This document shows, piece after piece, positions 5,560 to 49,923 of a stretch of 64,000 bases of DNA. Origin of the DNA: a bacterium (lineage in GTDB: Bacteria > UBA8248). The notes under the pieces are model-generated. The model had not been told where the DNA came from, ran no database searches, and saw only the letters and a list, made by a program, of their open reading frames with translations. Numbering within the stretch: position 1 is the first letter of the stretch; each line of letters starts with the position of its first letter. The DNA lies in assembly GCA_022828125.1 (NCBI GenBank), contig JAJEJD010000008.1, forward strand, positions 310,001 through 374,000, in the 5' to 3' direction. A program made the translations under genes and the position numbers.

Positions 5560-6882
5560 ATGATGGCAGTCGCAGACTCCGGCGGCGGTGACGCGCATCG
5601 GGAATCCGATATCTCCTGGCGCCGAATGCTCGCCGTATTCTGGCGCATCGGCATCCTCTCATTCGGCGGACCGGCGGCGCAGATAGCGGTCATGCACCGA
5701 ATCCTGGTGGAGGAGGAGAAGTGGCTCGACGAGCCGAGGTTCCTGGGCGCGCTCAGCTTCTGCATGCTGCTCCCCGGCCCCGAGGCCATGCAACTCGCCA
5801 CCTACGCGGGGTGGCAGCTTCGCGGCGTGCGCGGCGGGCTGCTGGCGGGCCTTTTGTTCGTGGTACCGGGCGCTTTGGTGGTGCTCGGGCTGGCGATGCT
5901 CTACATGGCCGTGGGCCACCTGCCGGTCATGGCCGCGCTGTTCCTGGGAATCAAGGGCGCAGTTCTGATCATCGTGATGGAGGCCTTGCTGCGGGTGGCG
6001 AAAAGAGCGCTGCACTCCGCCGTGCACTGGATCATCGCCGGCCTGGCCTTCGTGGCCATCTTCTTTCTCTCGGCCCCGTTCCCCCTCATCATCCTGGCAT
6101 CCGCCCTCGCCGGATTTTTCCTGTTGGGCGGCCAGGACACCGAAAAGGCCGGAACCGGGCATAGTGGCGGGTCGGTCTCCGGCACGGTGAGGACGGTGGC
6201 GATATGGATGATCCTCTGGTGGACGCCGGTGCTGCTGCTGACGGCTCTGGGCGGCTACGAGGTTCTCGTGCAGATCGGCAATTTCTTCTCCCGCCTGGCG
6301 GTGGTCACGTTCGGCGGCGCCTACGCGGTGCTCGCCTATCTGGCGCAGGACGTGGTAACCAACAAAGGCTGGTTGAGCGCCGGTGAAATGATGGACGGCC
6401 TGGGGCTGGCGGAAACCACCCCGGGACCGCTGATCCTGGTCACGGAGTTCGTCGGCTATGTCGCAGGATACCGTGCGGGCGGGGTGAGCATGGGAATCGC
6501 CGGCGCGCTGGTCACGCTCTGGGTCACGTTCGCGCCCTGTTTCCTGTGGATATTCGCGGGCGCGCCCTACATCGAGCAGCTCACGGCCCAGCCGAGGCTG
6601 AAGGGTGCTTTGGAATCGATCACCGCAGCGGTGGTGGGCGTCATTCTCAACCTCTCCATCTGGTTCGGCCTGCACGTCCTGTTCGCCGAGCTGCCGTCGG
6701 TGCAAATCGGCCCGGTCAAACTCCTTGCGCCGGTATGGCACACCCTGGACTGGCGGGTTCTGCTCATCGGCATCGTGAGCGCGGTCATGCTCCTGTGGCG
6801 GCACCAGTCTCTCATGAGGACCCTGGGCGTCGCGGCGCTGATGGGCCTTGGTTTCGCCGCGATGGATCACTTCGCCGGATAG
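5560..6882 (+). CDS. chrA: Chromate transporter, two-domain CHR type
   Basis: A 440-residue membrane protein of the CHR family made of two homologous halves. The first half begins with FGGPAAQIAVMHRILVEEEK (about residues 33-52) and the second with FGGAYAVLAYLAQD (about 252-265). Each is followed by the WL-x-LPGP/TTPGP region typical of the family. Many hydrophobic helices are visible. Characterised members export chromate by proton antiport; other members have unknown substrates. The start could be either ATG of the pair at 5560/5563, both preceded by GGAGA. It appears monocistronic. Confidence 0.88.
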   Translation: MMAVADSGGGDAHRESDISWRRMLAVFWRIGILSFGGPAAQIAVMHRILVEEEKWLDEPRFLGALSFCMLLPGPEAMQLATYAGWQLRGVRGGLLAGLLFVVPGALVVLGLAMLYMAVGHLPVMAALFLGIKGAVLIIVMEALLRVAKRALHSAVHWIIAGLAFVAIFFLSAPFPLIILASALAGFFLLGGQDTEKAGTGHSGGSVSGTVRTVAIWMILWWTPVLLLTALGGYEVLVQIGNFFSRLAVVTFGGAYAVLAYLAQDVVTNKGWLSAGEMMDGLGLAETTPGPLILVTEFVGYVAGYRAGGVSMGIAGALVTLWVTFAPCFLWIFAGAPYIEQLTAQPRLKGALESITAAVVGVILNLSIWFGLHVLFAELPSVQIGPVKLLAPVWHTLDWRVLLIGIVSAVMLLWRHQSLMRTLGVAALMGLGFAAMDHFAG

Positions 6883-7036
6883 CGGAACAAACAGAAGTCC
6901 TCCCGCATCTGGATCACGAGGCGCAAGCCCGTTATAATCGCCGCGTTCATTGGAAAAACCCGAATGAAAATTTTCAGGGCGGCCTTTCGCGCCGCCTGCA
7001 CTCAAACATCTTCGATGAGCCGAGGAGAAAGACCGA

Positions 7037-8791
7037 ATGAGCGATTACAAGACCGAAGACAGAGACGGAATGCGCATCGACTGGGACATGCCCATCCCCA
7101 TGGAAGACGGGATCGTTCTGCGCTGCGACGTCTACCGCCCCCAGGACGATGCGGGGAAATACCCCGTCATCCTGACGTATGGGCCGTATGGAAAATACCT
7201 GCACTTCGAGGACCTGTACGAGACCTGCTGGACGCGCATGGTCGAGCAACACCCCGACGTGCCGGCAGGATCGACCAACAAGTACCAGAACTGGGAGGTC
7301 GTGGACCCCGAGAAATGGGTGCCGGACGGCTACGTCTGCATTCGCGTGGACTCGCGCGGCGCGGGCCGCTCGCCGGGCGTCATCGACATCTGGTCGGCGC
7401 GCGAGGCGCAGGACTTGTACGAGTGCATCGAGTGGGCGGCCGTGCAGTCCTGGAGCACGGGCAAAATCGGCCTGAACGGCATCTCGTATTACGGCATGAA
7501 CCAGTGGCAGGTGGGCGGAATGCAGCCGCCTCACCTCGCCGCCATGTGCGTCTGGGAGGGCGCGGCCGATTTCTACCGGGAAATGGCCCACCACGGCGGC
7601 ATTTTCTGCAACGGCTTCGCGCGCAACTGGTCCGAGATGCAGGTCTACACCGTCCAGCATGGCCTCGGCACGCGCGGCTTCAAGAGCCGCTTCACGGGCG
7701 ACTGGGTGTCCGGCCCCATCACCTTGAGCGAAGAAGAACTCGGCGCCAACCGCCGGGACTTCGGCGAGGACTGTTTTTCCCACAAGCTCGACACCGATGA
7801 ATACTGGCAGTCGCGGATGCCCGATTTCAGCAAGATTCAGGCGCCGCTCTTATCCAATGCCAACTGGGGCGGGCAAGGGCTCCATCCGCGCGGGAACTTC
7901 GAGGGCTTTCTCGAAGCAGGATGCGAGGAAAAATGGCTCGAAGTGCACGGCATCGAGCACTGGACGGAGTTCTATACCGACTACGGCGTCAACATGCAGA
8001 AGAAATTCTTCGGCCACTACCTGAAGGGAGAGGACACCGGCTGGCCGGATCAGCCCCGGGTGCTGCTCCAGGTGCGCCACCCCGGCGAGCGCTTCGTCGA
8101 GCGTCACGAGAACGAATGGCCGCTGGCGCGCACGCAGTGGACGAAATACTACCTGAACGCGCAAACCCATACGCTCGAAAACGCGCCCGTCGCCGAGGCG
8201 GCGACCGCCACCTACGCGGGCTTCAGCGAGGGCGTCACATTCATCACGCCGCCCATATCGGAAGAAACCGAAGTCACCGGCCCCATCGCGGCCAAGCTCT
8301 TCGTGTCGTCGGAAACAAAGGATGCGGATATGTTCCTGGTCGTGCGCGTCTTCACGCCGGACATGGAAGAAGTCGTATTCCAGGGCGCGCTCGACCCGCA
8401 CACCCCCATCGCGCAGGGCTGGTTGAGAGCCTCGCACAGAAAACTCGACCCTGAAAAAACCCTGCCCTACAGGCCATATCACACGCACGACGAGGAGCAG
8501 CCCCTGACGCCGGGCGAGGTGTATGAACTCGACATCGAGGTATGGCCGACCTGCATCGTGATTCCCGAGGGCTACCGGGTCGCCTTCACGGTGCGCGGAA
8601 AGGACTACGTCTACCCCGGCGGGTCGGGCGGCGGCCTCTCCAACATGAAGAACGAGTTCACCGGCTGCGGATGCTTCATCCACAACGACCCCAAGGACAG
8701 GCCGCCCGATGTGTTCGGCAAGAACGTGACCCTCCATTGCGGCGGGGAGCACGAGGCCTACGTGATGCTGCCGGTGATTCCCGAGAAATAG
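7037..8791 (+). CDS. CocE/NonD family alpha/beta hydrolase, copy 1
   Basis: A 584-residue X-Pro dipeptidyl-peptidase-like hydrolase. The N-terminal catalytic domain has the nucleophile S150 in GLNGISYYGMNQ and a likely catalytic His at 308 (VHGIEHWTEFY). The C-terminal jelly-roll domain starts around residue 400 (SEETEVTGPIAAKLFVSSE). The position that is the acid in classical CocE (Gly-Trp-x-Asp) here reads NWGGQGLH, so the usual Asp is absent. Substrates would be esters or amides; the real one is unknown. GAGGAGAAAG precedes the ATG, and a TATAAT at 6933-6938 may be the -10 box. A close paralogue follows 41 bases downstream. Confidence 0.88.
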   Translation: MSDYKTEDRDGMRIDWDMPIPMEDGIVLRCDVYRPQDDAGKYPVILTYGPYGKYLHFEDLYETCWTRMVEQHPDVPAGSTNKYQNWEVVDPEKWVPDGYVCIRVDSRGAGRSPGVIDIWSAREAQDLYECIEWAAVQSWSTGKIGLNGISYYGMNQWQVGGMQPPHLAAMCVWEGAADFYREMAHHGGIFCNGFARNWSEMQVYTVQHGLGTRGFKSRFTGDWVSGPITLSEEELGANRRDFGEDCFSHKLDTDEYWQSRMPDFSKIQAPLLSNANWGGQGLHPRGNFEGFLEAGCEEKWLEVHGIEHWTEFYTDYGVNMQKKFFGHYLKGEDTGWPDQPRVLLQVRHPGERFVERHENEWPLARTQWTKYYLNAQTHTLENAPVAEAATATYAGFSEGVTFITPPISEETEVTGPIAAKLFVSSETKDADMFLVVRVFTPDMEEVVFQGALDPHTPIAQGWLRASHRKLDPEKTLPYRPYHTHDEEQPLTPGEVYELDIEVWPTCIVIPEGYRVAFTVRGKDYVYPGGSGGGLSNMKNEFTGCGCFIHNDPKDRPPDVFGKNVTLHCGGEHEAYVMLPVIPEK

Positions 8792-11638: not shown

Positions 11639-12523
11639 TTGCTCGATTCCCTTCATCCCAACCTGATGGCGCTTCTCTCGGCGTTTTTCATCTCGGTCGC
11701 CAGGACGCTCTACCGTGGCGCGCTCATGAGCCTGAGCCCGCTCGTGACGACGGTCATCGCGACCATCATCACGACCATCTTCGCGCTCGGCCTCTATGCG
11801 ATGGGCGAGGGACTGGAGCACTGGCCGCTCTACGGAATCCTGTGGTTCGCGCTCGTGGGCGCGGTCGGCGGACTGGGCGGGCGCTACATGGGGATGATTT
11901 CCATCAAGCTCGTGGGGCTGGCCCGCACGCCCATCCTGACGCAGACGGGCCTCGTCTGGTCCTCGGGGCTGGCTGTCATTCTATTGGGCGAGAGGCTCAC
12001 CCCCCTGGTGACGCTGGGAACGCTGGGCATCATGGCGGGCGGCGTCCTGCTCCTGTACGACAGGAAAGCCACCCAGAGACGAATTCCCCTCACCTACTAC
12101 CTGATCCCCGTGACGGGTGCGGCGTTTGCGAGCATCTCCCACATCGTACGCAAATACGGCTTCGTCCACATCCCCTCGGTCACGCTGGGGATGGGCGTCT
12201 CGAACATGACGACGCTCACACTCCTGCTCGCGAGCGCATTCTTCTTCCCGGCGCTCCAGATGAAAAGCACATCCTACACCCGCCATTCGCTCCTCATCAC
12301 CGCTCTGGGCGCTGCGTGCAACTTTCTGGCCGCGTTCTTCTTCTGGTGGGCGATCAAGGACGGCGAGGTCATTCAGGTGGTTCCCATCAACCGCCTCTCG
12401 ATCCTGATCGTCATCCTCTTCTCCTGGCTGTTCTTCAGGAAACAGGAGCGCGTGAGCGCGCAGGTGATCATCGGCGGGGCCTGCTCGGTGCTGGGCGCAT
12501 GGGCCGTCGTGTGGGGGAAGTGA
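11639..12523 (+). CDS. EamA/DMT-superfamily membrane transporter
   Basis: A 294-residue protein with about ten hydrophobic segments arranged as two EamA repeats (roughly residues 8-140 and 150-290). Typical features are the re-entrant GERLTPLVTLG stretch and the closing LSILIVILFSWLFF-ERVSAQVIIGG block. It would export or import a small metabolite across the inner membrane. The listed start is TTG (MLDSLHPN). An ATG nine codons further in, at 11666, is also possible, and neither has a strong ribosome site. Confidence 0.8.
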   Translation: MLDSLHPNLMALLSAFFISVARTLYRGALMSLSPLVTTVIATIITTIFALGLYAMGEGLEHWPLYGILWFALVGAVGGLGGRYMGMISIKLVGLARTPILTQTGLVWSSGLAVILLGERLTPLVTLGTLGIMAGGVLLLYDRKATQRRIPLTYYLIPVTGAAFASISHIVRKYGFVHIPSVTLGMGVSNMTTLTLLLASAFFFPALQMKSTSYTRHSLLITALGAACNFLAAFFFWWAIKDGEVIQVVPINRLSILIVILFSWLFFRKQERVSAQVIIGGACSVLGAWAVVWGK

Positions 12524-12565
12524 TTTCTCGAGGCGGGCGATGCGCTTCTACACAACCTGACACCC

Positions 12566-37910: not shown

Positions 37911-39539
37911 TTATGCCGATATGGCGCCGACGGGGCGCGAAGAAGCCGAAAAGCCGTCTCCGGTTTTTTTCACGAAAACGTTCACCCGCCAGCGCGCGTC
38001 GTCGGGCTCGGGATAGTCCGTCCGGAAGTGCGCGCCGCGGCTCTCCGTCCGCATGAGGGCGGCCTCCACCACCGCCCCCGCGCTCAGGCACATGTTCTCG
38101 GCTTCGACGGCCTCCACCATGCGCGCGGGCTCGCTCCCCCCGCAGTCGGCCAGGCCGCGCTCCGCACCTGCGAGTTCGGCTCTCGCCTCCTCCAGCAGGC
38201 CGCCCTCGCGCACGATGCCGGCGTTCTCCCAGCAAACGCGCTTGATCTCGCGGGCGAGCTCCACCGCGCGGCCCGTCCTCCCCGCCCGCGCCGTGAGGGC
38301 GTCGGCGTGGTGCCGCGCGAGCGCAGTATCGGCCGCCCCCTCCGCGCCGCGCGCATAACCGGCGGCCGCCTTCGCCGCGCGCCAGCCCAGCGCGTGGGCT
38401 TCGGTGAAGGCGTTGTTCGAGAGGCGGTTCGCCCCGTGCGCGCCGGCGCTCGCCTCCCCCGCCGCGTAGAGGCCCGGCATGGCCGTCGCCCCCTGTCCGT
38501 CTATCGGCACCCCGCCCATGAAGAAGTGCGCCTTCGGTGTGACGTAGATGTCGCTGCCGTGGGGCGAGACGCCCCTTCTGGCGAAGAGCTTGAGGTTATC
38601 GGGGGCGAAATGCTCGAGATCGGCCATCGGGATGCCCGAGAGATCCATCTGCACGGCGCCGTCCACCCCGCCGCCGCCCATGAGTTCGAGATAGACCGCC
38701 CGCGCCATCAGGTCGCGCGTGGCGCCGCCGCCGCCGGGCACGTCGCGCAGGATGTCGGCGCCGTCTCGGTTCAAAAAGCGCGCGCCGAGCGGGAACAGCG
38801 TGGGCGCCACCACCATGTTGCTCTCGGGGCGCTTGATGACGGCCGGGTAGAACTGGACGAACTCCATGTCCGAGAGCGCCAGGCCGGCCCGCAGCGCCAT
38901 GCCGAAGGCGTCTCCCGTGATGCCGCCCGCGTTCGTGTTCTCGGCGTATATCTGCCCCGCCCCGCCGGTGGCCAGTATGGTGGCTGCGGCGTGTACCGCG
39001 TAAATCGCGCCGCTTCTGGTGTGAAAGCCGATCACCCCCCGGCAGACGCCGTCCGCCACGAGCAGATCGACCGCCATGACGTGTTCGAGAATGCGCGCCC
39101 CGTCGGCGTCGAGCTTTTTGCGCAGCGGCCTCGCCACCTCCACGCCCCAGTTCCTGACCGGGTAGAGGCCGCGGTCGCGCCTGTGGCCGCCCTGGGGGTG
39201 CAGGTCGAACGTGCCGTCCCCGCGCGTGATGAAGGGGATGCCCCACTCGTACAGGTCGCGAATCCGCGCGGCGGAATCCGCGCACATGGCGTCGGCGACA
39301 TCGGGGTGGTTGAGGTAATCGCCGCCTACGAGAGTGTCTTCGAGGAACAGTGCCGCGCTGTCATCGGGCGCGAAATTGGCCGAATGCCCCGCCCGGGCCA
39401 TGACGATGTTGCCCGAACTGCCCGGAGACTGCTTGCAGACCAGGAGCGCGTCCGCACCGCTCTCCATGGCGGCGATAGTGGCCGTCATCGCGGCGGGTCC
39501 GCCGCCGAGAATCAAAACGTCGCAGGAGAGGTTTTCCAT
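37911..39539 (-). CDS. FAD-dependent oxidoreductase of the fumarate reductase/aspartate oxidase type
   Basis: A 542-residue flavoprotein. The N-terminal dinucleotide-binding fold is VLILGGGPAAMTATIAAM (8-25). An ATGGAGQIYAENTNAG block and PGLYAAGEASAGAHGANRLSNN are typical of succinate dehydrogenase, fumarate reductase and L-aspartate oxidase flavoproteins. The His that holds FAD covalently in respiratory enzymes is absent, so the cofactor is bound non-covalently, as in L-aspartate oxidase or soluble reductases. Catalytic residues for fumarate are not all evident, so the substrate may be another 2-enoate. It is the last gene of the leftward block, 50 bases after the Mo-subunit gene. Confidence 0.8.
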   Translation of the reverse strand: MENLSCDVLILGGGPAAMTATIAAMESGADALLVCKQSPGSSGNIVMARAGHSANFAPDDSAALFLEDTLVGGDYLNHPDVADAMCADSAARIRDLYEWGIPFITRGDGTFDLHPQGGHRRDRGLYPVRNWGVEVARPLRKKLDADGARILEHVMAVDLLVADGVCRGVIGFHTRSGAIYAVHAAATILATGGAGQIYAENTNAGGITGDAFGMALRAGLALSDMEFVQFYPAVIKRPESNMVVAPTLFPLGARFLNRDGADILRDVPGGGGATRDLMARAVYLELMGGGGVDGAVQMDLSGIPMADLEHFAPDNLKLFARRGVSPHGSDIYVTPKAHFFMGGVPIDGQGATAMPGLYAAGEASAGAHGANRLSNNAFTEAHALGWRAAKAAAGYARGAEGAADTALARHHADALTARAGRTGRAVELAREIKRVCWENAGIVREGGLLEEARAELAGAERGLADCGGSEPARMVEAVEAENMCLSAGAVVEAALMRTESRGAHFRTDYPEPDDARWRVNVFVKKTGDGFSASSRPVGAISA

Positions 39540-39589: not shown

Positions 39590-41860
39590 TCATATCCTTG
39601 CTTCTTCGATCGCCTCGAGCACGCGCTCGGGGGTGACGGGCAGGGTGCGTATCCGCGCGCCGCCCGTCGCGTGGTAGACGGCGTTGCAGATCGCCGCCGT
39701 GATCGGGTTGATCGCCACCTCGGCCAGCCCCTTGGCGCCGTAGGGGCCGTAGGGGTCCATGGACTCGAAGAAATCATGCTCAATCGGCGGGGCGTCCATC
39801 GAGGTCGCGATGAGGTAGTCGTGGAAATTTTTTCCGCGCAGATGGCCCTCCAGCGGCGCGAGACCCTCCATCATCGCGTAGCTCATGCCCTGGACCACGC
39901 CGCCCTCGACCTGGCCCTCCGCGCCCAGCCTGTTGATCACCCGGCCCGGGTCGTGGCCGCAGCAAACCCCCAAGACGGTGACGACGCCCGTCTCCATGTC
40001 CACTTCCACCTCGGCGCCGTGCGTGCTGAAGGAATACGTGGTCGAGGGATTCCCGTATTTCTCCTTATCCAGCACGTCTCCCCCGGCCAGCCACTTGCCC
40101 TCGCCCTCAACCACGCTGCCAACGCGCCTCACGACCTCGCCCACCGCCATCTTCCGCTCCGGCAGGGCCTTCGCGCGGACTTCCCCCTCCACGATTTCGA
40201 GCTCATCCGCCGGGATTTCCATGGCCTCCGCAGCGGCGTCCAGGAGGTTCCTGCGCGCGTCCTCGGCGGCGAGCTTCACGGCGTTTCCGCCGATCAGCGT
40301 GATTCGGCTCGCGAACGCCCCCATCCCGAAGGGCATGTAGCCCGTATCGGTGGGCGGGACCTTGAACCGATCGACCGGAATCCCCATGACCTCGGAGGCG
40401 ATGTAGGCCATCACGCTCGTGGCCCCCTGGCCCAGGTCCGATTCGCCCGACCAGATCTCGACGCCTCCCTCCTCATCCACGCGGACCACGCCGCTCGAGG
40501 GGTCGGTGTCATCGGGGCCAAGCTCCACGGAAAATCCCTTGTTTCCCGAAACGTGGATGCAGCTGGCGAGGCCTATTCCGCGCCCCTTCCCGCCCCGGGC
40601 GCGCTTGGCCTTCCAGTCCATCTCCCTGACTACGTACCTGGTGGCGTCGGCCACGGCGCAACTCGCTATCTTCCAGCCGTGGAGCGAGACGTCGCCTTTT
40701 TCGGTGTAGTTTTTGAGGCGAAGGTCCGCAGGGTCCAGGCCCAGGCCGTCGGCTACGTTGTCAAGGTGGCTCTCCCAGGCGTAGGTCGCCTGCACGTTGC
40801 CGAACCCGCGCATCTGGCCCGAGGGGATGATGTTCGTGTAGACGAGCCTGCCCTGAATCTCGGCGGCGGGCGTCTTGTAGAGGTTGTCCGTCCGGAGCGC
40901 GATGGAACTCATGATGGCGGGCGACAGCGAGCTGTAGGCGCCGTTTTCCGCCACGATCCTGACGCGCTTGCCCGCGAGCGCCCCGTCATTCTTCCAGGCG
41001 GATTCCAGGGAGATGTGCACCGGCATCCTCGGGCGCATGGCGATCAGGTCTTCTTCCAGGCTCATCATGAATTTGACCGGCTTTTCCGCCGCCCGGCTCA
41101 GCATCGCCGCCATGAGGGCCGCCTTCACGTCCAGCTTGCCGCCGAAGGCGCCGCCCGGCTTGGTCTGCGTCACGCGAAAATCATCGGCGGACATGCCCAT
41201 CACCGGCGCCAGCATGAAGGTGCGGATCAGGAACACCGACTGCAGACAGCCCCAGACGGAGATTTTTCCGTCCGGATGCCACTGCGCCGCGCAACCGGTG
41301 GGCTCGATATAGGCCTGGTGCGCGAGATGGGTGTGGAATTCATCCGCGAACGTAGCATCCGCCTTCTCGAACGCCTCGTCTATCGCGCCGCGCTTGATGT
41401 GAAACTCGTTCGCGATGTTGCCGGCGACGGAATCATGAACGAGAGGCGCTCCGGGCTCCAGCGCCGCGAACGGGTCCGCCACCGTGGGCAGAACCTCGTA
41501 TTCCACGCGGATGAGCGAGAGCGCCTCGCGGGCCGTCGCCTCGTCCGCGGCGGCCACGGCGGCGACTTCGTCCCCCACGTAGCGAACCTTCTCGCGGCAA
41601 AACGCAGCTTCATCCTTGTGATTGATGCCGAACGGGGCGTCCGGCGTGTTGTTTTTCGACAGGACGACGGCGACACCCGGCAGGCGCTCCGCGGCCGACG
41701 TGTCGACGTTCAATACCCTCGCATGGGGATGCGGGCTGCGCAGCGCCACCCCCGTGAGCGCGCCCGGAAGCTCCAGATCGTCGATGAATATCGTGGCGCC
41801 CGAGACTTTCTCGGCCGCATCGATGATGGGGTGGGGCCGGCCGACGACGCGCTCGCTCAT
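39590..41860 (-). CDS. Molybdenum hydroxylase large subunit (xanthine dehydrogenase family)
   Basis: A 756-residue molybdopterin-cytosine-dinucleotide-type subunit. Visible are RVVGRPHPIIDAAEKVSGAT at the start, GGAFGGKLDVKAAL (Mo cofactor loop), SGQMRGFGNVQATYAWES, and EGGVVQGMSYAMMEG near the C-terminus, which precedes the active-site Glu region. The CODH signature is not present. It hydroxylates a heterocycle or aldehyde with water as the oxygen source. The ATG at 41860 overlaps the stop of the small subunit by 4 bases. The order FAD-2Fe2S-Mo in the operon is typical. Confidence 0.92.
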   Translation of the reverse strand: MSERVVGRPHPIIDAAEKVSGATIFIDDLELPGALTGVALRSPHPHARVLNVDTSAAERLPGVAVVLSKNNTPDAPFGINHKDEAAFCREKVRYVGDEVAAVAAADEATAREALSLIRVEYEVLPTVADPFAALEPGAPLVHDSVAGNIANEFHIKRGAIDEAFEKADATFADEFHTHLAHQAYIEPTGCAAQWHPDGKISVWGCLQSVFLIRTFMLAPVMGMSADDFRVTQTKPGGAFGGKLDVKAALMAAMLSRAAEKPVKFMMSLEEDLIAMRPRMPVHISLESAWKNDGALAGKRVRIVAENGAYSSLSPAIMSSIALRTDNLYKTPAAEIQGRLVYTNIIPSGQMRGFGNVQATYAWESHLDNVADGLGLDPADLRLKNYTEKGDVSLHGWKIASCAVADATRYVVREMDWKAKRARGGKGRGIGLASCIHVSGNKGFSVELGPDDTDPSSGVVRVDEEGGVEIWSGESDLGQGATSVMAYIASEVMGIPVDRFKVPPTDTGYMPFGMGAFASRITLIGGNAVKLAAEDARRNLLDAAAEAMEIPADELEIVEGEVRAKALPERKMAVGEVVRRVGSVVEGEGKWLAGGDVLDKEKYGNPSTTYSFSTHGAEVEVDMETGVVTVLGVCCGHDPGRVINRLGAEGQVEGGVVQGMSYAMMEGLAPLEGHLRGKNFHDYLIATSMDAPPIEHDFFESMDPYGPYGAKGLAEVAINPITAAICNAVYHATGGARIRTLPVTPERVLEAIEEARI

Positions 41861-42339
41861 GAGTCGCCTCCCTCTTTCATCTGCCGGGCGGCGGCCGAGA
41901 CCGCCTCGAAAATTTTCTTGTACCCCGTGCACCGGCAAAGATTTCCGGCGAGACCGCGTTGTATGTCCTCGCGCGTGGGCTCTGGATTTTCATCCAGGAG
42001 CGCCTTCGCCGACACGACGATTCCCGGCGTGCAGAAACCACACTGCACGCCCCCTTTTTCGATGAGCTGCTCCTGAACCGGGTGGAGGTCGTCTTCCGTT
42101 CCGACGCCGCGCACGGTAGTGATCTCGCAGCCGTCCGCCTGCGCGACGAACACGAGGCAGGCGTTCACCGCCACGCCGTCGAGCAAAACGGCGCACGCGC
42201 CGCAATCGCCGCCCTCGCAGCTGAGCTTCACCTCGACGTAGCCGACCCGCCTGAGCGCGCGCAGGAGCGTCTCCTCCCCCCGCACGGCGAGGATCTCGTC
42301 ATTTCCGTTCACGCTAAATTTTATTTCGTATGTACTCAT
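41857..42339 (-). CDS. Molybdenum hydroxylase 2Fe-2S subunit
   Basis: A 160-residue protein with two clusters. The plant-type ferredoxin cluster uses CEGGDCGACAVLLDG-x-C (about 41-62). The second, in the C-terminal helical domain, uses CGFCTPG (around 100) and CRCTGY (around 135). It relays electrons from the Mo centre to the FAD subunit. It lies 29 bases after the FAD subunit gene and overlaps the large subunit. Confidence 0.95.
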   Translation of the reverse strand: MSTYEIKFSVNGNDEILAVRGEETLLRALRRVGYVEVKLSCEGGDCGACAVLLDGVAVNACLVFVAQADGCEITTVRGVGTEDDLHPVQEQLIEKGGVQCGFCTPGIVVSAKALLDENPEPTREDIQRGLAGNLCRCTGYKKIFEAVSAAARQMKEGGDS

Positions 42340-42368
42340 TTTTTCTCAATTAAAATGCCGAATTTTCA

Positions 42369-43223
42369 TCAAACAGCCGCGGCATGCGGCATTCCCAGCG
42401 CTTTTTTCAGCAGGCGCCGGACCAGCACGCCGCACATTTTCCTGCGGTACGCACCACTCGCCCGCACGTCGTCAATGGGCCGCGCGCCGTCCGCTGCGGC
42501 GGCTGCGGCCGCCTCGATTTCCGCCTCCCCGATTTCCTTACCCCGCAGATGCGCCTCGGCCGCGCTCGCGCGATACGGCACCGCGGCCACCGCACCCATG
42601 CCGATGGCGGCCTGCTCGCAAACGCTTTCTTCCATCCGGAGAACGACCGCCACACCCACGACGGCGATGGCCATCGCACGCCTGAGCTGGAGCTTGTAGT
42701 ACGCGCAACGATCCGCCGTCCCCAGCGGATCGATGACGACGGCCGTCATGAGTTCTTCCGGCCGCGCGGCCGTTTTCCGGTAGTCGAGAAAGAATTCCGA
42801 AAGCGGAAGAACGCGCTCCCCCTCCCCCGAGGCCAATTCGACGACGGCATCCTGCGACAGCAGGGGCGGGGCCAGATCGGCGGCGGGCGAGGCGTCCATG
42901 AGATTGCCCGCCACGCTCGCCCGGTTTCTCACCAGAGGGCCCGCGAATTCAAGGGCGCTCTCGTACAGAGGCGGGGCGGCATCACGTATCAACCTGGAAT
43001 CCAGCAAATCCGTCACCGTCGCCAGTGCTCCGATTCGGATCTTCCCGTCCGCCTCCTCGATGAAGCGAAGCTCATCCAGACGGCTGATGTCCACCGCGCG
43101 CGCTATCTTCTTGCGCCCGAAGAGCACGTCCGGCACGAGATTCGTGCCGCCCGCCACGAAAGCGGCGCCGTCCCCCGCAGCCGCCAATGCCTCATCCACC
43201 GATGCAGCGCGTAAAAATTCCAT
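42369..43223 (-). CDS. Molybdenum hydroxylase FAD subunit
   Basis: A 284-residue CoxM-type protein. The FAD-binding loops are AFVAGGTNLVP (about 21-31) and LVRNRASVAGNLMDASPAADL (about 97-117), both characteristic. The C-terminal domain ends YRRKMCGVLVRRLL. It passes electrons to an acceptor. First gene of the three-subunit set, 70 bases after the selenoprotein. Confidence 0.93.
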   Translation of the reverse strand: MEFLRAASVDEALAAAGDGAAFVAGGTNLVPDVLFGRKKIARAVDISRLDELRFIEEADGKIRIGALATVTDLLDSRLIRDAAPPLYESALEFAGPLVRNRASVAGNLMDASPAADLAPPLLSQDAVVELASGEGERVLPLSEFFLDYRKTAARPEELMTAVVIDPLGTADRCAYYKLQLRRAMAIAVVGVAVVLRMEESVCEQAAIGMGAVAAVPYRASAAEAHLRGKEIGEAEIEAAAAAAADGARPIDDVRASGAYRRKMCGVLVRRLLKKALGMPHAAAV

Positions 43224-43293: not shown

Positions 43294-44091
43294 TCATGGC
43301 CTGATGTCGGATTCAATCTGCATCCCCGTCGCCAGGGCGTTGAAGCTGTTGTAGTGGTCCACCACCCCGAGAATCTCGAGGATGCGCCCCGGATCCCAGC
43401 CCAGTTTCACCAGATAAGAATGAAAATACCGTATGAAATACCCCGACCCGTTCGTAGCGCTGACGCCGAAACCCACGGCGGCCTTGGCCCCTTTTTCGAG
43501 GACCCCTCCATCGAGCATGAGCTTGTGCTTGTTCCACGTCGATTCGAAATAATGGCGGTTCCGAGCCAGGCAGCGCCAATAGCGCGGAACGCCGTCTCTA
43601 CCCAGGCGCGCCGATTCCACCTCCGCCACTTCGCCCATCAGTTCCCGGACGACAGGGTCGATCTCCTCATCTTCCGCATCAGGCAGAAGGGGCGGCGTAT
43701 CCTCATCTTCCAGCAAAAGCCCGAATGCGACCTTGTTCATCCCCGAGACGTGATCCGTCAGCCCGATCAATTCCGTGATGCCCACCTCATCGACCCCCAG
43801 CCGCATGACCGCGGCGATATGGGAATCGATTCAGTAGTCACACGCATTGACGATGGAAACCGCCGAGGCGACCATCTCCTTGACCAGAGGCGGCACGTCT
43901 CCGCGCTGCATCGTGGCGCGCGAGCGCTCCCAACTCGCCTTCATGTATTCGGGGTGATGGGTCATCGAGCGCCAGATGTTCGAGAGCGAGTCAATGCCGA
44001 ATACGCGCTTCTCGCGCGTCTTGACGCGCTCGACGAGATCGCGCGCCGCCTCAGGCACCTCGTCATCGGCCAACTGGTGGATCGTCGGCAT
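43294..44091 (-). CDS. AhpD-like selenoprotein with a fused degenerate second domain
   Basis: From the ATG at 44091 the frame meets a single TGA (43833-43831) and continues in the same frame to 43294. Reading TGA as selenocysteine gives 265 residues. The TGA falls in E72-x11-C84-x2-U87-x3-H91 (VNACDYUIDSH), the AhpD motif with Sec in place of the second, attacking cysteine. A SECIS-like hairpin follows immediately. A second AhpD-like half (about 170-265) repeats the fold, with TNGSGYFIRYFH where CDYUIDSH would be; it lacks Cys and Sec and is probably structural. Predicted thiol/selenol peroxidase or disulfide reductase. It lies between livK and the Mo-hydroxylase genes. Confidence 0.85.
43789..43830 (-). 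promoter_or_regulatory. Bacterial SECIS-like hairpin for the in-frame TGA
   Basis: Right after the TGA the message can fold in order: ATCGA pairs with TCGAT, TTCCC with GGGGG, an unpaired ATATC lies opposite one U, GCCGC pairs with GCGGC, and the apical loop is GGUCAU. The first loop G is 21 bases after the UGA; in E. coli fdhF the GGUC loop is at 19. Loop sequence, distance and bulge fit what SelB recognises. Confidence 0.8.
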
Positions 44092-44162: not shown

Positions 44163-45371
44163 CTATCTCGGATACCTGAACTTCGCGTTCGCCACGCTCT
44201 TCGGCCCCACCGTCTTGCGTTTTCCGTCCTGCACCTGGAACAAAACGATGGCGCTGGCCGCGTTCATGTTGCGCTTGTCGAATTTTACGGGGCCGAAGAA
44301 AGTTTTCAGATCGGTGTTCGCAATCGCATCACGAACTTTTTTCTTGTCGAGCGTACCGGCCGCTTCGATTGCCTTTTGAGCGACGATACCCGCAGTCGTC
44401 GACGCCGCGGCGACGTAATCCGGCTCCTGCTTGAACTTGGCGCGCCAGATTTTCCCGAAGTCGCGCGCCGTGCCAATGAAGTCGCCCTTATAATCGAGCG
44501 CCTCGCCCCACCATGCGGCGGTCAGGATGTTGTTGGCCGTGGCGCCGAGCGATTCGGTGAACTGCGCATAGACCGGACCCACCATGGTGAACAGGATTTT
44601 GGGCTTCACCCCCAACTCGTTCGCCTGCTTGGTGGCGAGGAGGGTGTCGGGAAGATAGCCGGCCACCATGAGCACGTCGGGATTCTTGCCCTTCACGATC
44701 GTGAGCCAAGTGGACATGTCCTTCGAATCCTTGGGGAACTCGGCGTAGTAGACGTCCGTGAAACCCTGCTTTTTCGCAGCCGACCTGATCGTCTTTGTAA
44801 TGGCGCGCGGGAAGAAGTCGTTGCGCGTCACGAAAGCGATGGTCTTCGGCATCGGCTTTTGCTCTTTCAGGAGCGTAAGGAAGTTGTTCGGCAGATACGA
44901 ATTCGGCGCCAGGAGGCCGAAGAGGTACTTGTAGCCCTGGTCGAAAATCGGCTCGGAACTGGCCACGGGCGCGATGAGGGGAACCTGATAGCGCTCCGTG
45001 ATCGCGGCGACGGATTTCGTCGCTCCGCTTCCGAACGGGCCCAGAAGGAGGTCCACTTTTTCCTTGGTGATGAGCCGCTCGGCGAGCTTGGTGGCCGTCG
45101 GCGTCTTGCTCTCGTAGTCGTAGTAGACGATCTTCACCTTCATCTTCTTGCCGCCTACGTTGATGCCGCCCGCCTTGTTGACGCGCTCGCGCCAGATTTC
45201 ATAGCCCGCCTGCTGCTTTTTCCCCTCGGTGGCGAGCGGACCCGTGAGCGGCAAGGCGGCGCCGAACTTGATCTCCGCCGCCTGGGCGCCGTCCGGACCC
45301 TGCAGGCCCGTTACGCCGAATGCGACAAACAAGACTGCTGCGATGAGAAACAACAAATTCCGCCTTCTCAT
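44163..45371 (-). CDS. livK: Branched-chain amino-acid-type ABC substrate-binding protein
   Basis: A 402-residue periplasmic binding protein of the Leu/Ile/Val-receptor type. A signal peptide (MRRRNLLFLIAAVLFVAFG...AQA, about 1-32) is followed by EIKFGAALPLTGPLATEGKK and KVDLLLGPFGSGATKSVAAI. The ATG at 45371 has GAGGAG 7 bases upstream and is preferred to the ATG five codons earlier. It lies downstream of livF in the same direction. Family substrates include branched amino acids, amides, urea and aromatic acids, so the ligand is uncertain. Confidence 0.9.
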   Translation of the reverse strand: MRRRNLLFLIAAVLFVAFGVTGLQGPDGAQAAEIKFGAALPLTGPLATEGKKQQAGYEIWRERVNKAGGINVGGKKMKVKIVYYDYESKTPTATKLAERLITKEKVDLLLGPFGSGATKSVAAITERYQVPLIAPVASSEPIFDQGYKYLFGLLAPNSYLPNNFLTLLKEQKPMPKTIAFVTRNDFFPRAITKTIRSAAKKQGFTDVYYAEFPKDSKDMSTWLTIVKGKNPDVLMVAGYLPDTLLATKQANELGVKPKILFTMVGPVYAQFTESLGATANNILTAAWWGEALDYKGDFIGTARDFGKIWRAKFKQEPDYVAAASTTAGIVAQKAIEAAGTLDKKKVRDAIANTDLKTFFGPVKFDKRNMNAASAIVLFQVQDGKRKTVGPKSVANAKFRYPR

Positions 45372-45468
45372 GATTCGTCTCCTCATAAAGTGAGTGCTGC
45401 CTCTTCCGTTTACGGTTCTCACACGATATTCGCACAAGTTGATTACAGACAGATTATATGAAAACGGG

Positions 45469-46209
45469 CTACATGCCCAGATACGCCTTTTTCACCTCCG
45501 GATTCGCCAGAAGCTCATCCGACGTGCCGGAGATCGTCACGCGCCCGGTTTCAAAAACATACGCCCGGCTCGCGAGTTCGAACGCGGTGAGCACATCCTG
45601 TTCCACGAGAATGATGGCGACGCCCTCCTCGTTGATCTGCCGGACGAAACCGCACAACTCCTCCACCAGCCTGGGCGCGAGACCCAGGGAAAGCTCATCG
45701 ATCAGGAGCAGCCTCGGACGCGCCATCAGTCCTCGGGCAATCGCGCACATCTGCTGCTCGCCGCCGGACATGCTCCCCGCAAGCTGGGATTTACGTTCCG
45801 CCAGCCTCGGGAAGAACCCGTACACCCTCTCCAGATCCGCCGCCAGTTCGTGATCGGCCATCTTCCGGGCATAAGCGCCCATCAGGAGATTCTCCTCCAC
45901 GCTCATCGCGGCGAAGAGCCTGCGGCCCTCGGGCACGTGGGAAATCCCCTTGGCGACGATGCCCTCCGGCGCCATCCCCCCGATGGACTGACCACCAAGC
46001 GTTATCGTGCCCGCCCGATGAGGGAGAACGCCCGATAGCATACGCAGGAACGTCGATTTTCCGACGCCGTTGCTGCCGACGATGGCGACGATCTCGCCTT
46101 CGTTCACACGCAGATCGATACCCCACAGGACCTGAACGTCGTCGTATCCGCCCGCCAGGCCGCTTACTTCGAGGAGGCTCGCTCCGCCTTGAGATGCGCC
46201 CGTCGCCAC
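45469..46209 (-). CDS. livF: Liv-type ABC transporter ATPase F
   Basis: A 246-residue ATPase. Walker A is GSNGVGKST, the signature GSMSGGEQQMCAIARGL, and Walker B LLLIDELSLGLAP, which is the LivF version. GTG start, 2 bases after the livG stop. Confidence 0.95.
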   Translation of the reverse strand: MATGASQGGASLLEVSGLAGGYDDVQVLWGIDLRVNEGEIVAIVGSNGVGKSTFLRMLSGVLPHRAGTITLGGQSIGGMAPEGIVAKGISHVPEGRRLFAAMSVEENLLMGAYARKMADHELAADLERVYGFFPRLAERKSQLAGSMSGGEQQMCAIARGLMARPRLLLIDELSLGLAPRLVEELCGFVRQINEEGVAIILVEQDVLTAFELASRAYVFETGRVTISGTSDELLANPEVKKAYLGM

Positions 46210-46211
46210 CT

Positions 46212-46979
46212 CTAGGACTCCTCGTCCAGTTTTTTCATCATCGCCACGTATTTCTCGCCCAGATAGGCCTTGATGACCTGCTCGTCACTCGTCACCTCGC
46301 GCGGCAAACCTTCCGCTATCTTCTCCCCGTGGTGCAGAACGATAACGCGGTCCGAGAGGTCCGTGATCACCTTCATCAAGTGCTCGATCACCAGGATGGT
46401 CACGCCCTGCTCTCTCACCTTGTGGATGAGGGAGATGGCGTTCTCGATTTCCATCGTGTTGAGACCCGCATTCACCTCGTCCAGCAGCAACACTTCCGGC
46501 TCGGTGGCGAGGGACTTGGCGAATTCCAGGCGTTTTCTCTCGGCGAGCGTGAGTTGAGAGGCGAGTTGCGCCGACTTATCGCTCAAGCCCACGAACGCCA
46601 GCATTTCATCGGCGAGTTCCTGGGCGCGTTTCACCTCCTTTTTCGACTTCTGGGAGCCGAACAGCGCGCCCATCACGACGTTCTCGCGCACTGCGAGGCC
46701 TGCGAAAGGCTGGACGATCTGAAACGTCCGTGCGACTCCCTTGCGTGTGATGGCGTGGGGTTTCATGGTTTCGATGCGATCACCGCGAAAGAGAATTTCG
46801 CCCTCGTTCGCCGGATCGAGACCCGTGATGCAATTGAGGAGTGTCGTCTTCCCCGCGCCGTTGGGGCCGATGACGCCCAGTATCTCTCCTTTTTGCACGG
46901 TGAAATCCACCGCCGAGACGGCGGTGAGTCCGCCGAAGCGCTTCGTGACGCCCCTGCCTTCTAATAGTGTTTCGCTCAC
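46212..46979 (-). CDS. livG: Liv-type ABC transporter ATPase G
   Basis: A 255-residue ATPase. Walker A is GPNGAGKTT (about 36-44), the signature LTLAERKRLEFAKSL replaces a classical LSGGQ, as in LivG, and Walker B is VLLLDEVNAGLN. The GTG at 46979 overlaps the livM stop (GTGA), which is the reason for this start. Confidence 0.93.
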   Translation of the reverse strand: MSETLLEGRGVTKRFGGLTAVSAVDFTVQKGEILGVIGPNGAGKTTLLNCITGLDPANEGEILFRGDRIETMKPHAITRKGVARTFQIVQPFAGLAVRENVVMGALFGSQKSKKEVKRAQELADEMLAFVGLSDKSAQLASQLTLAERKRLEFAKSLATEPEVLLLDEVNAGLNTMEIENAISLIHKVREQGVTILVIEHLMKVITDLSDRVIVLHHGEKIAEGLPREVTSDEQVIKAYLGEKYVAMMKKLDEES

Positions 46980-47959
46980 ACCTTGAACCTCTGTATGTTG
47001 CTCTTGAGAATCACCCCCAACGACCCCCACCCGCGGCTCTTCACTTCCTGGGAGACAGCCATCAGGCCGCGCGGGAGGAACAAGACGACCAGCACGATGA
47101 TGATTCCCAGGAACGCGCTATGGAATTCCGTGAAGGCTCCCCAGAGGTAATCCGACAGGTATTCCATCATCAACGCGCCCACGAGCGGACCCATCACAGT
47201 CCCCACCCCGCCGAGCATCGACATCACGATTGCCTTGATGGAGAACAAGACGTCGAAAACGTCGATGGGTTCCAGAAACGCGGCGCGGTAGGCGTATACG
47301 CCGCCGCCCATCGCGGGGAAAATGGATGAGAGCACGAAGGCGATGATCTTGTATTTCGTCGTATCCACACCCGTCATGGCCGCCGCGTCCTCGTTCTCGC
47401 GGATGGCGACGAGGCCGTAGCCCAGGCGGTGCCGCGTAACGAAGTACTGCGTCAGGACGGCGAGCACGGCCACCCCGAGCATGGAGAAGTAGAAAAAGCG
47501 CGTGAAGTAATCCGGCCCGCCCGTAATCTGGGGCAGGTTGATGCCGTCTCCCCCGCCGGTGATGCGCAGGTTATCCGCCAGTTCGCGGAAGAATTCCGCC
47601 ACGCCGAAGGTGGCGATGGCGAAGTAGTGCCCCCTCAGCCTCAATATGGGAACGCCCAGGGCGAGCGCCACGAGCGCGCCCAGACAGGCGCCGATACCCA
47701 ACGTGATGAAGAAATTGAACCCCGCGTTCATGAGGATGGCCGTCGTGTACGCCCCCAGCCCGAAAAAAGCGGCCGGCGCGAAGGAGGGATAGCCCGTCAG
47801 GCCGCCGATAAAGTTCCAGCTCGTCGCCAGGATGGCCACCATCAGGATGTCCATCCACTTCCTAATCTCGTCGTTTTCCACGAAAGAGGGCAAGAGGATG
47901 AGGGCGAGCAAGCCCACTCCCATGCCGAACCATTGAATGTGGGACCAGGGTCTGAACAT
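46976..47959 (-). CDS. livM: Liv-type ABC permease M
   Basis: A 327-residue inner-membrane permease with about nine helices. LivM blocks include NFIGGLTGYPSFAPAAFFGLGAY, RLRGHYFAIATFGVAEFF and GTVMGPLVGALMMEYL. I use the ATG at 47959, which has AAAGGG 11 bases upstream and lies just after the livH stop; a TTG at 47968 is also possible. It forms a heterodimer with LivH. Confidence 0.9.
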   Translation of the reverse strand: MFRPWSHIQWFGMGVGLLALILLPSFVENDEIRKWMDILMVAILATSWNFIGGLTGYPSFAPAAFFGLGAYTTAILMNAGFNFFITLGIGACLGALVALALGVPILRLRGHYFAIATFGVAEFFRELADNLRITGGGDGINLPQITGGPDYFTRFFYFSMLGVAVLAVLTQYFVTRHRLGYGLVAIRENEDAAAMTGVDTTKYKIIAFVLSSIFPAMGGGVYAYRAAFLEPIDVFDVLFSIKAIVMSMLGGVGTVMGPLVGALMMEYLSDYLWGAFTEFHSAFLGIIIVLVVLFLPRGLMAVSQEVKSRGWGSLGVILKSNIQRFKV

Positions 47960-47960
47960 G

Positions 47961-48836
47961 CTATTCAAAACCCTTTCTGCCCAGCAGGCCCGACGGCTTG
48001 ATGAAGAGCACGAGAATCAGGAGCACGTAGCCGATGGCGTTCTGCAGGCCTGGACCCAAGTACAACGCCCCGAAATTCTCGGCGAGGCCCAGGATCAGCC
48101 CCCCCGCCAGCGCTCCCGTGATGTTCCCCAATCCCCCGATGGTGCAGATGATGAAAGATTTCGAGAGGAACTCCACGTCGCTCACCGGCGAGATGGCGAA
48201 ACCCACACTCACCAGAGAACCCGACGTGGCAGCCGCCGCCGCGCCGATTCCATACGTGATGGCGTAGATTCTGCCGATGTCGACGCCCATCAGCTGGGCG
48301 GAATCCAAATCCATCCGCGTTGCCCGTATGGCCCGGCCCGTGCGCGTGCGTCCCATGAACCAGAAAAGAATGCTCGTGAGAGCGACGCCCAGCACGAATA
48401 TGGAAATCCGGACGAAGGGGATGGATAGCCCCATGAAGGGGATGGAAAAACCCGCGTAAGAGGGCTGAACCGACCTGAAGTCGCCGGTGAAGAAATATAT
48501 CGCGAGTCTCACGATGAGCAACTGAAGGCCGAAGGTGAGGATCAGGGACATGAACATGGGTGCGCGCACGATCTTGTTGATCAGTCCGCGCTGCACCGCG
48601 TAGCCGGCGCAGAACATGGAGACGGCGGAGAGCGGGAGGGATAAAAACGGGTCCACGCCGTAGAGCTTGAACATCCAGAACGTGACGTAGCCGCCCAGCA
48701 TCAGGAACGTGCCGTGCAGGATGTTGAGGATGTTCATCACGCCCCAGACGAGCGAGAACCCGACCGCGATGCAGGCGTAGATGCCTCCCAGGAGAATGCT
48801 GTTAATCAGAATCTGGCCATAAACCATATATCTCAC
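47961..48836 (-). CDS. livH: Liv-type ABC permease H
   Basis: A 291-residue inner-membrane permease. LivH features are LLGGIYACIAVGFSLVWGVMNILN at the N-terminus, GRAIRATRMDLDSAQLMGVD and GGLGNITGALAGGLILGLAE. Start GTG at 48836 or an ATG three codons later. It lies 22 bases after the cysteine-synthase-like gene, so the transporter genes are probably read from an upstream promoter. Confidence 0.93.
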   Translation of the reverse strand: MRYMVYGQILINSILLGGIYACIAVGFSLVWGVMNILNILHGTFLMLGGYVTFWMFKLYGVDPFLSLPLSAVSMFCAGYAVQRGLINKIVRAPMFMSLILTFGLQLLIVRLAIYFFTGDFRSVQPSYAGFSIPFMGLSIPFVRISIFVLGVALTSILFWFMGRTRTGRAIRATRMDLDSAQLMGVDIGRIYAITYGIGAAAAATSGSLVSVGFAISPVSDVEFLSKSFIICTIGGLGNITGALAGGLILGLAENFGALYLGPGLQNAIGYVLLILVLFIKPSGLLGRKGFE

Positions 48837-48858: not shown

Positions 48859-49923
48859 TCAGGTGATGATCTCCCATTCGCTCGAATACCGATCGAGCTG
48901 CGCCGCGCTGTATGGATCCACATGATGCTCGCGTTCCGGGATATCGACGTGTTTTTCCTCTCCGCACAAGGCGGTGGTGAAATAGCGCTGTCCCGTGTCG
49001 TTGATGTTCGTGACGATGTTGGCCAGTTCGGGATGCCTGCGGGCCAGCTTGACGGCGGCCGCCACGTTGCAACCCGAGGAGATGCCGCAGAAAATCCCCT
49101 CCTCGCGCGCGAGGCGCTGCGCCATTTCGACCGACTCATCCGTCGTCGTCGTTACGATGCCGGTGAGCAGCGACAAGTCGAGCGCCCTGGGCACGAAACC
49201 GTCCCCGATGCCCTCGATGCCGTGCGGCCCCCAGCCCCGCTCGCTCAGGAGCGGGCACTCCTGAGGCTCCACGGCGTAGAGCTTCACATCCGGGTTGTCT
49301 TCGCGCAGGAATTTCCCCACGCCGCTCACCCAGCCGCCCGTTCCCTGAGACGCCACGACGGCGTCGACGCGCCCGTCCAGCTGCTCGAAAATCTCGGGCC
49401 CCGTCGTGAGGTAGTGCGCCTCGTTGTTGTCGAGATTGTCGAACTGGGCGGGAACCCAGTATCGCTCGGGTGACGCCGCGCGGATTTCCTCGAGTTTCTC
49501 GAGCGCCAGGTCGACGTCGCTCTCCCCGCCCGGCGTAAACACCAAATCGGCCCCGTAGGCGCGCATGAGCTTTTTGCGCTCATCGCTCATGCCCTCGGGC
49601 ATGACGACGATGCAGGGGTAGCCCTTCACCGCGGATACGAACGCGCAGGCGATGCCTGCGTTGCCGGTGGAGCATTCGAGCACCGTCATGTCGGCCCTCA
49701 GGTCGCCGCGCTCCTCCGCCTTTAGGAGCATGTTGTAGTAGATGCGATCCTTGAGGCTTCCCGAGGGAGAATACCACTCCAGCTTCGCGTAGACCTCGGG
49801 GCCCAAGTCCGCCGCCACCTTGTTCAGGCGAACCAGGGGCGTGCCCCCGATGGCGTCGAAAATGTTTTCCGAATAGCGCCTGTAGGAATCCCAGGCTCTT
49901 TTTTCAATGCCCATTCTTCGCAT
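48859..49923 (-). CDS. PLP-dependent cysteine-synthase/cystathionine-beta-synthase-like enzyme
   Basis: A 354-residue fold-type II PLP enzyme. The Schiff-base lysine is K58 (SPSGSLKDR). The phosphate loops are ECSTGNAGIACAF, ASQGTGGWVSGVG and GISSGCNVAAA. Classical CysK has EPTSGNTG; the ST-for-TS swap and the Ala change suggest a specialised substrate. It could carry out beta-elimination/replacement on a serine derivative, or ammonia release from an amino acid brought in by the Liv system. First gene of the liv transcript, 103 bases from the LLM gene upstream. Confidence 0.85.
   Translation of the reverse strand: MRRMGIEKRAWDSYRRYSENIFDAIGGTPLVRLNKVAADLGPEVYAKLEWYSPSGSLKDRIYYNMLLKAEERGDLRADMTVLECSTGNAGIACAFVSAVKGYPCIVVMPEGMSDERKKLMRAYGADLVFTPGGESDVDLALEKLEEIRAASPERYWVPAQFDNLDNNEAHYLTTGPEIFEQLDGRVDAVVASQGTGGWVSGVGKFLREDNPDVKLYAVEPQECPLLSERGWGPHGIEGIGDGFVPRALDLSLLTGIVTTTTDESVEMAQRLAREEGIFCGISSGCNVAAAVKLARRHPELANIVTNINDTGQRYFTTALCGEEKHVDIPEREHHVDPYSAAQLDRYSSEWEIIT

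Follow-up and report, generated by a model that had tools for sequence, protein, structure and literature searches.

We propose that a gene on the minus strand of the window, the 64,000-nucleotide stretch of a bacterial contig analyzed here, encodes a two-domain AhpD/CMD oxidoreductase that is decoded with selenocysteine (Sec) and serves the catabolic module of its operon, a reading to which we assign a probability of about 0.85. Comparison with related genomes supports Sec recoding and shows an AhpD-type catalytic spacing, the degeneration of one of the two domains, and conservation of the operon, and on this evidence the recoding of UGA codon 87 as Sec is nearly certain. Selenoproteins of this general kind, AhpD/CMD proteins with a CxxU motif, have been known since 2005. 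Coordinates of the gene, its parts and its neighbors are collected in Table 1.

Table 1 Features of the candidate selenoprotein locus, in window coordinates
Feature	Position	Strand	Basis or remark
Predicted selenoprotein gene, two-domain AhpD/CMD	43294..44091	minus	265 aa through one TGA (+ TGA stop)
In-frame TGA, predicted Sec87	43831..43833	minus	second CxxC position (C84-D-Y-U87-I-D-S-H91)
bSECIS-like stem-loop directly 3' of TGA	43789..43830	minus	fold, codon freezing, stem covariation
Apical stem, guanosines in loop (GGUCAU)	43815-43800	minus	
N-terminal CMD domain, PF02627, residues 47-122, with E72, C84, U87, H91	43726..43953	minus	profile match
Second, degenerate CMD-like domain, about residues 134-264	43300..43692	minus	CxxC cysteines replaced
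Cysteine-synthase-like (CysK-like) PLP enzyme	48859..49923	minus	first gene of conserved cluster
LIV-type ABC transporter	45469..48836	minus	two permeases and two ATPases
LIV permeases	47961-48836, 46976-47968	minus	
LIV ATPases	46212-47030, 45469-46209	minus	
LIV-type periplasmic binding protein (livK)	44163..45374	minus	71 bp upstream of selenoprotein gene
Molybdenum hydroxylase	39590..43223	minus	three genes
Mo hydroxylase, FAD subunit	42369-43223	minus	70 bp after selenoprotein gene
Mo hydroxylase, 2Fe-2S subunit	41857-42339	minus	
Mo hydroxylase, Mo subunit	39590-41860	minus	
Fumarate-reductase/L-aspartate-oxidase-like flavoprotein	37911..39539	minus	

Reading frame and conservation of the in-frame TGA

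Translated from 44091 to 43294 with TGA read as U, the gene yields 265 residues (MPTIHQ...NACDYUIDSHIAAV...SDIRP), and codon 87 is the sole internal TGA. The sequence-only reading had placed this TGA at the second cysteine of an AhpD motif, with coding sequence in one frame on both sides, and had claimed that a standard gene caller would split the gene. All three claims held: the spacing E72-x11-C84-D-Y-U87-x3-H91 is exact in the translated frame, protein conservation among orthologues flanks the TGA on both sides of the 265-residue read-through, and translation with table 11 returns pieces of 86 aa (44091–43831) and 170 aa (43806–43294). We take E-x11-C-x2-C-x3-H to be the catalytic spacing of AhpD. 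The PF02627 profile spans the TGA with 56.7 bits (gathering cut-off, 23), which places the protein in the CMD/AhpD superfamily and means that a stop at this codon would cut the domain midway. When every crude candidate for TGA read-through across the window was compared, this gene ranked first for coding bias on either side of the TGA and for stability of the fold downstream, and it alone carried a CxxU/AhpD motif; the remaining candidates, without motif or folding support, were rejected. A promoter scan gave no signal above chance.

Orthologues with 77–97% protein identity were found in 11 of the 18 genomes of the window's phylum, distributed over two genera, and all 11, from independent MAGs, have TGA at the same codon, with E72, C84 and H91 likewise invariant. 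When 33 more distant relatives were added, the TGA together with E72, C84, Y86 and H91 was present in 44/44 aligned full-length two-domain proteins, a set from which one sequence (L082) was left out as its frame could not be assigned automatically. Homologues continue past the TGA position, and in the solved homologues 2ouw (CSYCAHSH) and 3c1l (CYYCLTAH) the aligned residue is Cys, placing the in-frame UGA where homologues have Cys or Sec.

Downstream hairpin and selenocysteine machinery

The TGA is followed directly by a stem-loop with guanosines in its apical loop, as in a bacterial SECIS. For the 60 bases that begin with GACUAC, the predicted folding energy is −34.2 kcal/mol (z = −5.5 relative to dinucleotide-shuffled sequences). 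In the codon alignment of the 11 orthologues, codons 92–97 (ATC GCC GCG GTC ATG CGG), those of the apical hairpin, show no nucleotide variation, and the codons flanking them vary synonymously. These are the most synonymously frozen six consecutive codons of the gene (permutation P = 4 × 10−5, an indicative value given that the 11 sequences are related and that the stretch was picked from the fold). Across distant relatives, stem pair 27–38 changes between C-G, A-U and U-A, a compensatory substitution, and the covariation score of the stem exceeds those of all 500 shuffles and of every slid control. Two sequences of the sister genus form a weak hairpin over its full length (z = −0.2 and −0.8) but retain the apical stem.

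The sequence-only reading had left Sec insertion as an inference, which comparative sequence evidence now supports, and the machinery whose absence would have spoken against it is encoded in the genome. The assembly (3.9 Mb, 97% complete) contains a tRNA-Sec with anticodon TCA (UCA) that scores above the Rfam cut-off (75.9 bits), together with matches to SelA (576 bits), SelB (385 bits) and SelD (335 bits), the genes expected in the host of a bacterial selenoprotein. The SelD gene (L019; G000:C30:4116–5078, minus strand) appears to encode a selenoprotein itself, with its own in-frame TGA within KAGGUGSK, at the catalytic position that holds Sec or Cys in this family. SelB is present in 15 of the 18 genomes of the window's small phylum, and Sec decoding is therefore general in this phylum. 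SelA and SelB have been reported as enriched in sponge symbionts (PMC5649159), and 63 selenoproteins have been predicted in one Methylomirabilota MAG, according to a recent review (PMC13188914).

These data bear on three other accounts of the TGA. If it were a true stop, the locus would encode two separate proteins of 86 and 170 aa, the second starting from the ATG that the downstream frame offers at 43806. We consider this very improbable: the conserved hairpin contains that ATG, which has no Shine-Dalgarno-like sequence ahead of it, the residues between the TGA and the ATG, including active-site His91, are conserved, and the CMD domain would be severed. It is just as hard to credit that a reassigned code or a suppressor inserts a residue other than Sec, since TGA works as a normal stop at the end of this same gene, the catalytic Cys of homologues aligns with this codon, tRNA-Sec and SelA, SelB and SelD are present, and SelD is recoded likewise at its known Sec position. 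A sequencing or assembly error or a pseudogene, in which TGA stands for a TGC or TGT that is a single base away, is excluded for practical purposes by the recurrence of the TGA in 11 MAGs from two genera, the protein being conserved to either side, and in 33 further relatives from several lineages, by the synonymously frozen hairpin, and by the complete Sec machinery.

Domain architecture and relatives

The protein scores above the cut-off of the AhpD core model TIGR00778 (41.1 versus 27.8 bits). Four narrower models were rejected on score as the family of the protein: full-length AhpD (TIGR00777; 28.3 versus 191.95 bits), AhpD-related (seleno)protein CFYUT (NF041238; 23.2 versus 175 bits), peroxidase-related (TIGR01926; 39.1 versus 81.8 bits), and the GSU3128 family (NF041047), for which no match was listed at E up to 1. 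The last three share a distant likeness in the AhpD core, some with Sec at CxxU, but the protein falls far below their cut-offs. PcaC (4-carboxymuconolactone decarboxylase, TIGR02425) was absent among the matches at E up to 1, and no NCBIfam equivalog model scored above its cut-off. Since table 11 breaks the gene in two and no such model captures it, many MAGs probably misannotate the family.

In the C-terminal half, which can be aligned to CMD proteins of one domain, the CxxC positions are occupied across the 44 two-domain proteins by Ser (rarely Cys) and by Gly or Phe. Having lost its redox motif, this second domain most likely functions in oligomerization or substrate binding. An AlphaFold model of moderate confidence (pLDDT 78.6, with residues 26–42 below 50) is all-helical and two-domain; its best structural match is a CMD structure, followed by AhpD. 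That best whole-chain match, the two-domain CMD protein 2q0t from Burkholderia xenovorans (E = 2 × 10−4, 249–258 residues), has 16% identity, and its listing does not describe it as a selenoprotein. The best sequence match of the N-terminal domain, the AhpD core of Rhodospirillum rubrum (2ouw, E = 6 × 10−14), differs in having a single domain and CxxC. AhpD of Mycobacterium tuberculosis (1gu9, 1knc) shares the fold and the E-x11-C-x2-C-x3-H spacing but has Cys instead of Sec and about 15% identity, and the gene cluster studied here is without AhpC. We do not call the protein AhpD because its cluster lacks AhpC/peroxiredoxin and because it fails the full-length AhpD profile (28 versus 192 bits). 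In a domain tree, the N- and C-terminal domains of the window's clade grouped together with weak support (87/77) where long branches meet. The tree is compatible with one fusion or with two, and the two halves may even have arisen by independent duplication in the window's phylum, in which case the same asymmetric design evolved twice.

Profile searches recovered the same two-domain layout in other lineages (G065, G115, G379 and G388) and matches in 38 genomes of another, 95-genome phylum, many of them two-domain relatives. No full-length two-domain Cys version was found in the genomes searched, with a profile that was neutral (X) at the Sec column. Among single-domain relatives, L045 and L050 have CxxC and L047 has CxxU; the last of these (G075:C1:14805–15188), with CEYUITVH, is a CMD protein encoded in an unrelated genome. 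A scan of genome contigs returned close orthologues only. Plasmid matches by tblastn were single-domain Cys proteins and were discarded as two-domain Cys versions, including a match of 82% coverage (Granulicella) that proved to be a 404-bp CDS matched twice. Two genomes (G463 and G472) have three to four family matches each, suggesting expansion of the family, and in one fragmented assembly (G388) an apparently single gene for a two-domain selenoprotein is divided between two contigs (L072 and L073). One orthologue (L041; MPNJ01 bin107) comes from the sponge Aplysina aerophoba (PMC5649159).

CxxU AhpD/CMD selenoproteins were reported from the Sargasso Sea in 2005 (PMC1088965), AhpD-like 1 and 2 selenoproteins from GOS in 2008 (PMC2398784), and a CMD-like PF02627 selenoprotein, exemplified by MBW1767730.1, in a 2026 review (PMC13188914). 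The present protein shares with these the PF02627/AhpD core, the CxxU position, and a bacterial SECIS directly downstream; it differs in its two CMD domains, the second without a redox motif, in having Sec in every aligned member, and in its operon, shared with LIV transporter and molybdenum hydroxylase genes. In the literature searched we found no description of this two-domain design and operon, MBW1767730.1 being known to us from its listing alone. The less described aspects are thus the redox-dead second domain, the conserved operon, and the lack of both an NCBIfam model that reaches its cut-off and, in the searched genomes, a two-domain Cys counterpart. The sequence-only reading mentioned neither the hairpin, the degenerate domain and the operon nor the earlier reports of CxxU relatives. 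As a tentative generalization, which we hold to be somewhat doubtful, the AhpD/CMD selenoproteins that pair a Sec-active domain with a redox-dead one could form an unannotated, possibly obligately Sec-dependent class in several uncultured phyla, associated with LIV import and molybdenum hydroxylases. The 44 aligned sequences could serve directly to train a profile and a SECIS model.

Gene neighborhood and possible function

The order CysK-like gene, livHMGFK, selenoprotein gene, and FAD, FeS and Mo subunits of the molybdenum hydroxylase is kept in 9/9 orthologous loci over the stretch that each contig covers; the exception is the sister-genus locus L044 (6022–9234), where tblastn found no FAD or 2Fe-2S subunit and the Mo subunit directly follows the selenoprotein gene. 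With neither an AhpC nor a peroxiredoxin gene in the conserved cluster, the genomic context lends no support to a peroxidase role.

Among the other relatives the neighbors differ, and the association with LIV and molybdenum hydroxylase genes is firm in the window's phylum only. At one locus of another phylum (L104; G492:C50), two selenoprotein genes (6283–7065 and 11753–12532) lie about 5 kb apart, with LIV genes before them and CoxL/M/S-like genes after them, all within about 16 kb. Because such genomes can be rich in members of the LIV and CoxL families, this co-location could be due to chance.

The likeliest role is that of a Cys/Sec redox enzyme serving the LIV/molybdenum-hydroxylase catabolic module, with a substrate and reductant that we infer. 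UGA codon 87 would be decoded as Sec by SelB and tRNA-Sec with help from the adjacent downstream stem-loop, giving an N-terminal domain in which Cys84 and Sec87, spaced with Glu72 and His91 as in AhpD, would form a redox pair. In AhpD, the second Cys of the motif attacks the substrate and the first resolves. By analogy, the Sec87 selenolate may attack an oxidized substrate, such as a peroxide, and Cys84 may resolve the adduct to a selenenyl sulfide that is then re-reduced by a dithiol; we give this exact catalytic role about even odds. Conservation of the operon suggests that the substrate arises during the import of a small organic compound and its oxidation by the molybdenum hydroxylase.

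Alternatively, the selenoprotein may be no peroxidase and may instead reductively cleave the imported compound, for example by dehalogenation, the type of reaction that the CMD-fold debrominase Bmp8 performs. Iodothyronine deiodinases, which use Sec, provide a model for such chemistry. The gene lies within an operon for import and molybdenum-dependent hydroxylation, Bmp8 (6ohi) is among the weak fold matches, and the sponge that yielded one orthologue, Aplysina aerophoba, is known for brominated metabolites. However, the Bmp8 match is weak (E about 1) and common to the whole superfamily, and the relatives are apparently not all derived from sponges (L042 and L043), and we regard this alternative as unlikely. 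For the preferred reading, a Cys/Sec oxidoreductase of the catabolic module, the conserved operon offers a testable physiological setting of import coupled with molybdenum-dependent oxidation for this selenoprotein family. In the window's genus, the molybdenum hydroxylase genes are followed by the fumarate-reductase/L-aspartate-oxidase-like flavoprotein gene, which the sister genus lacks at the collinear place.
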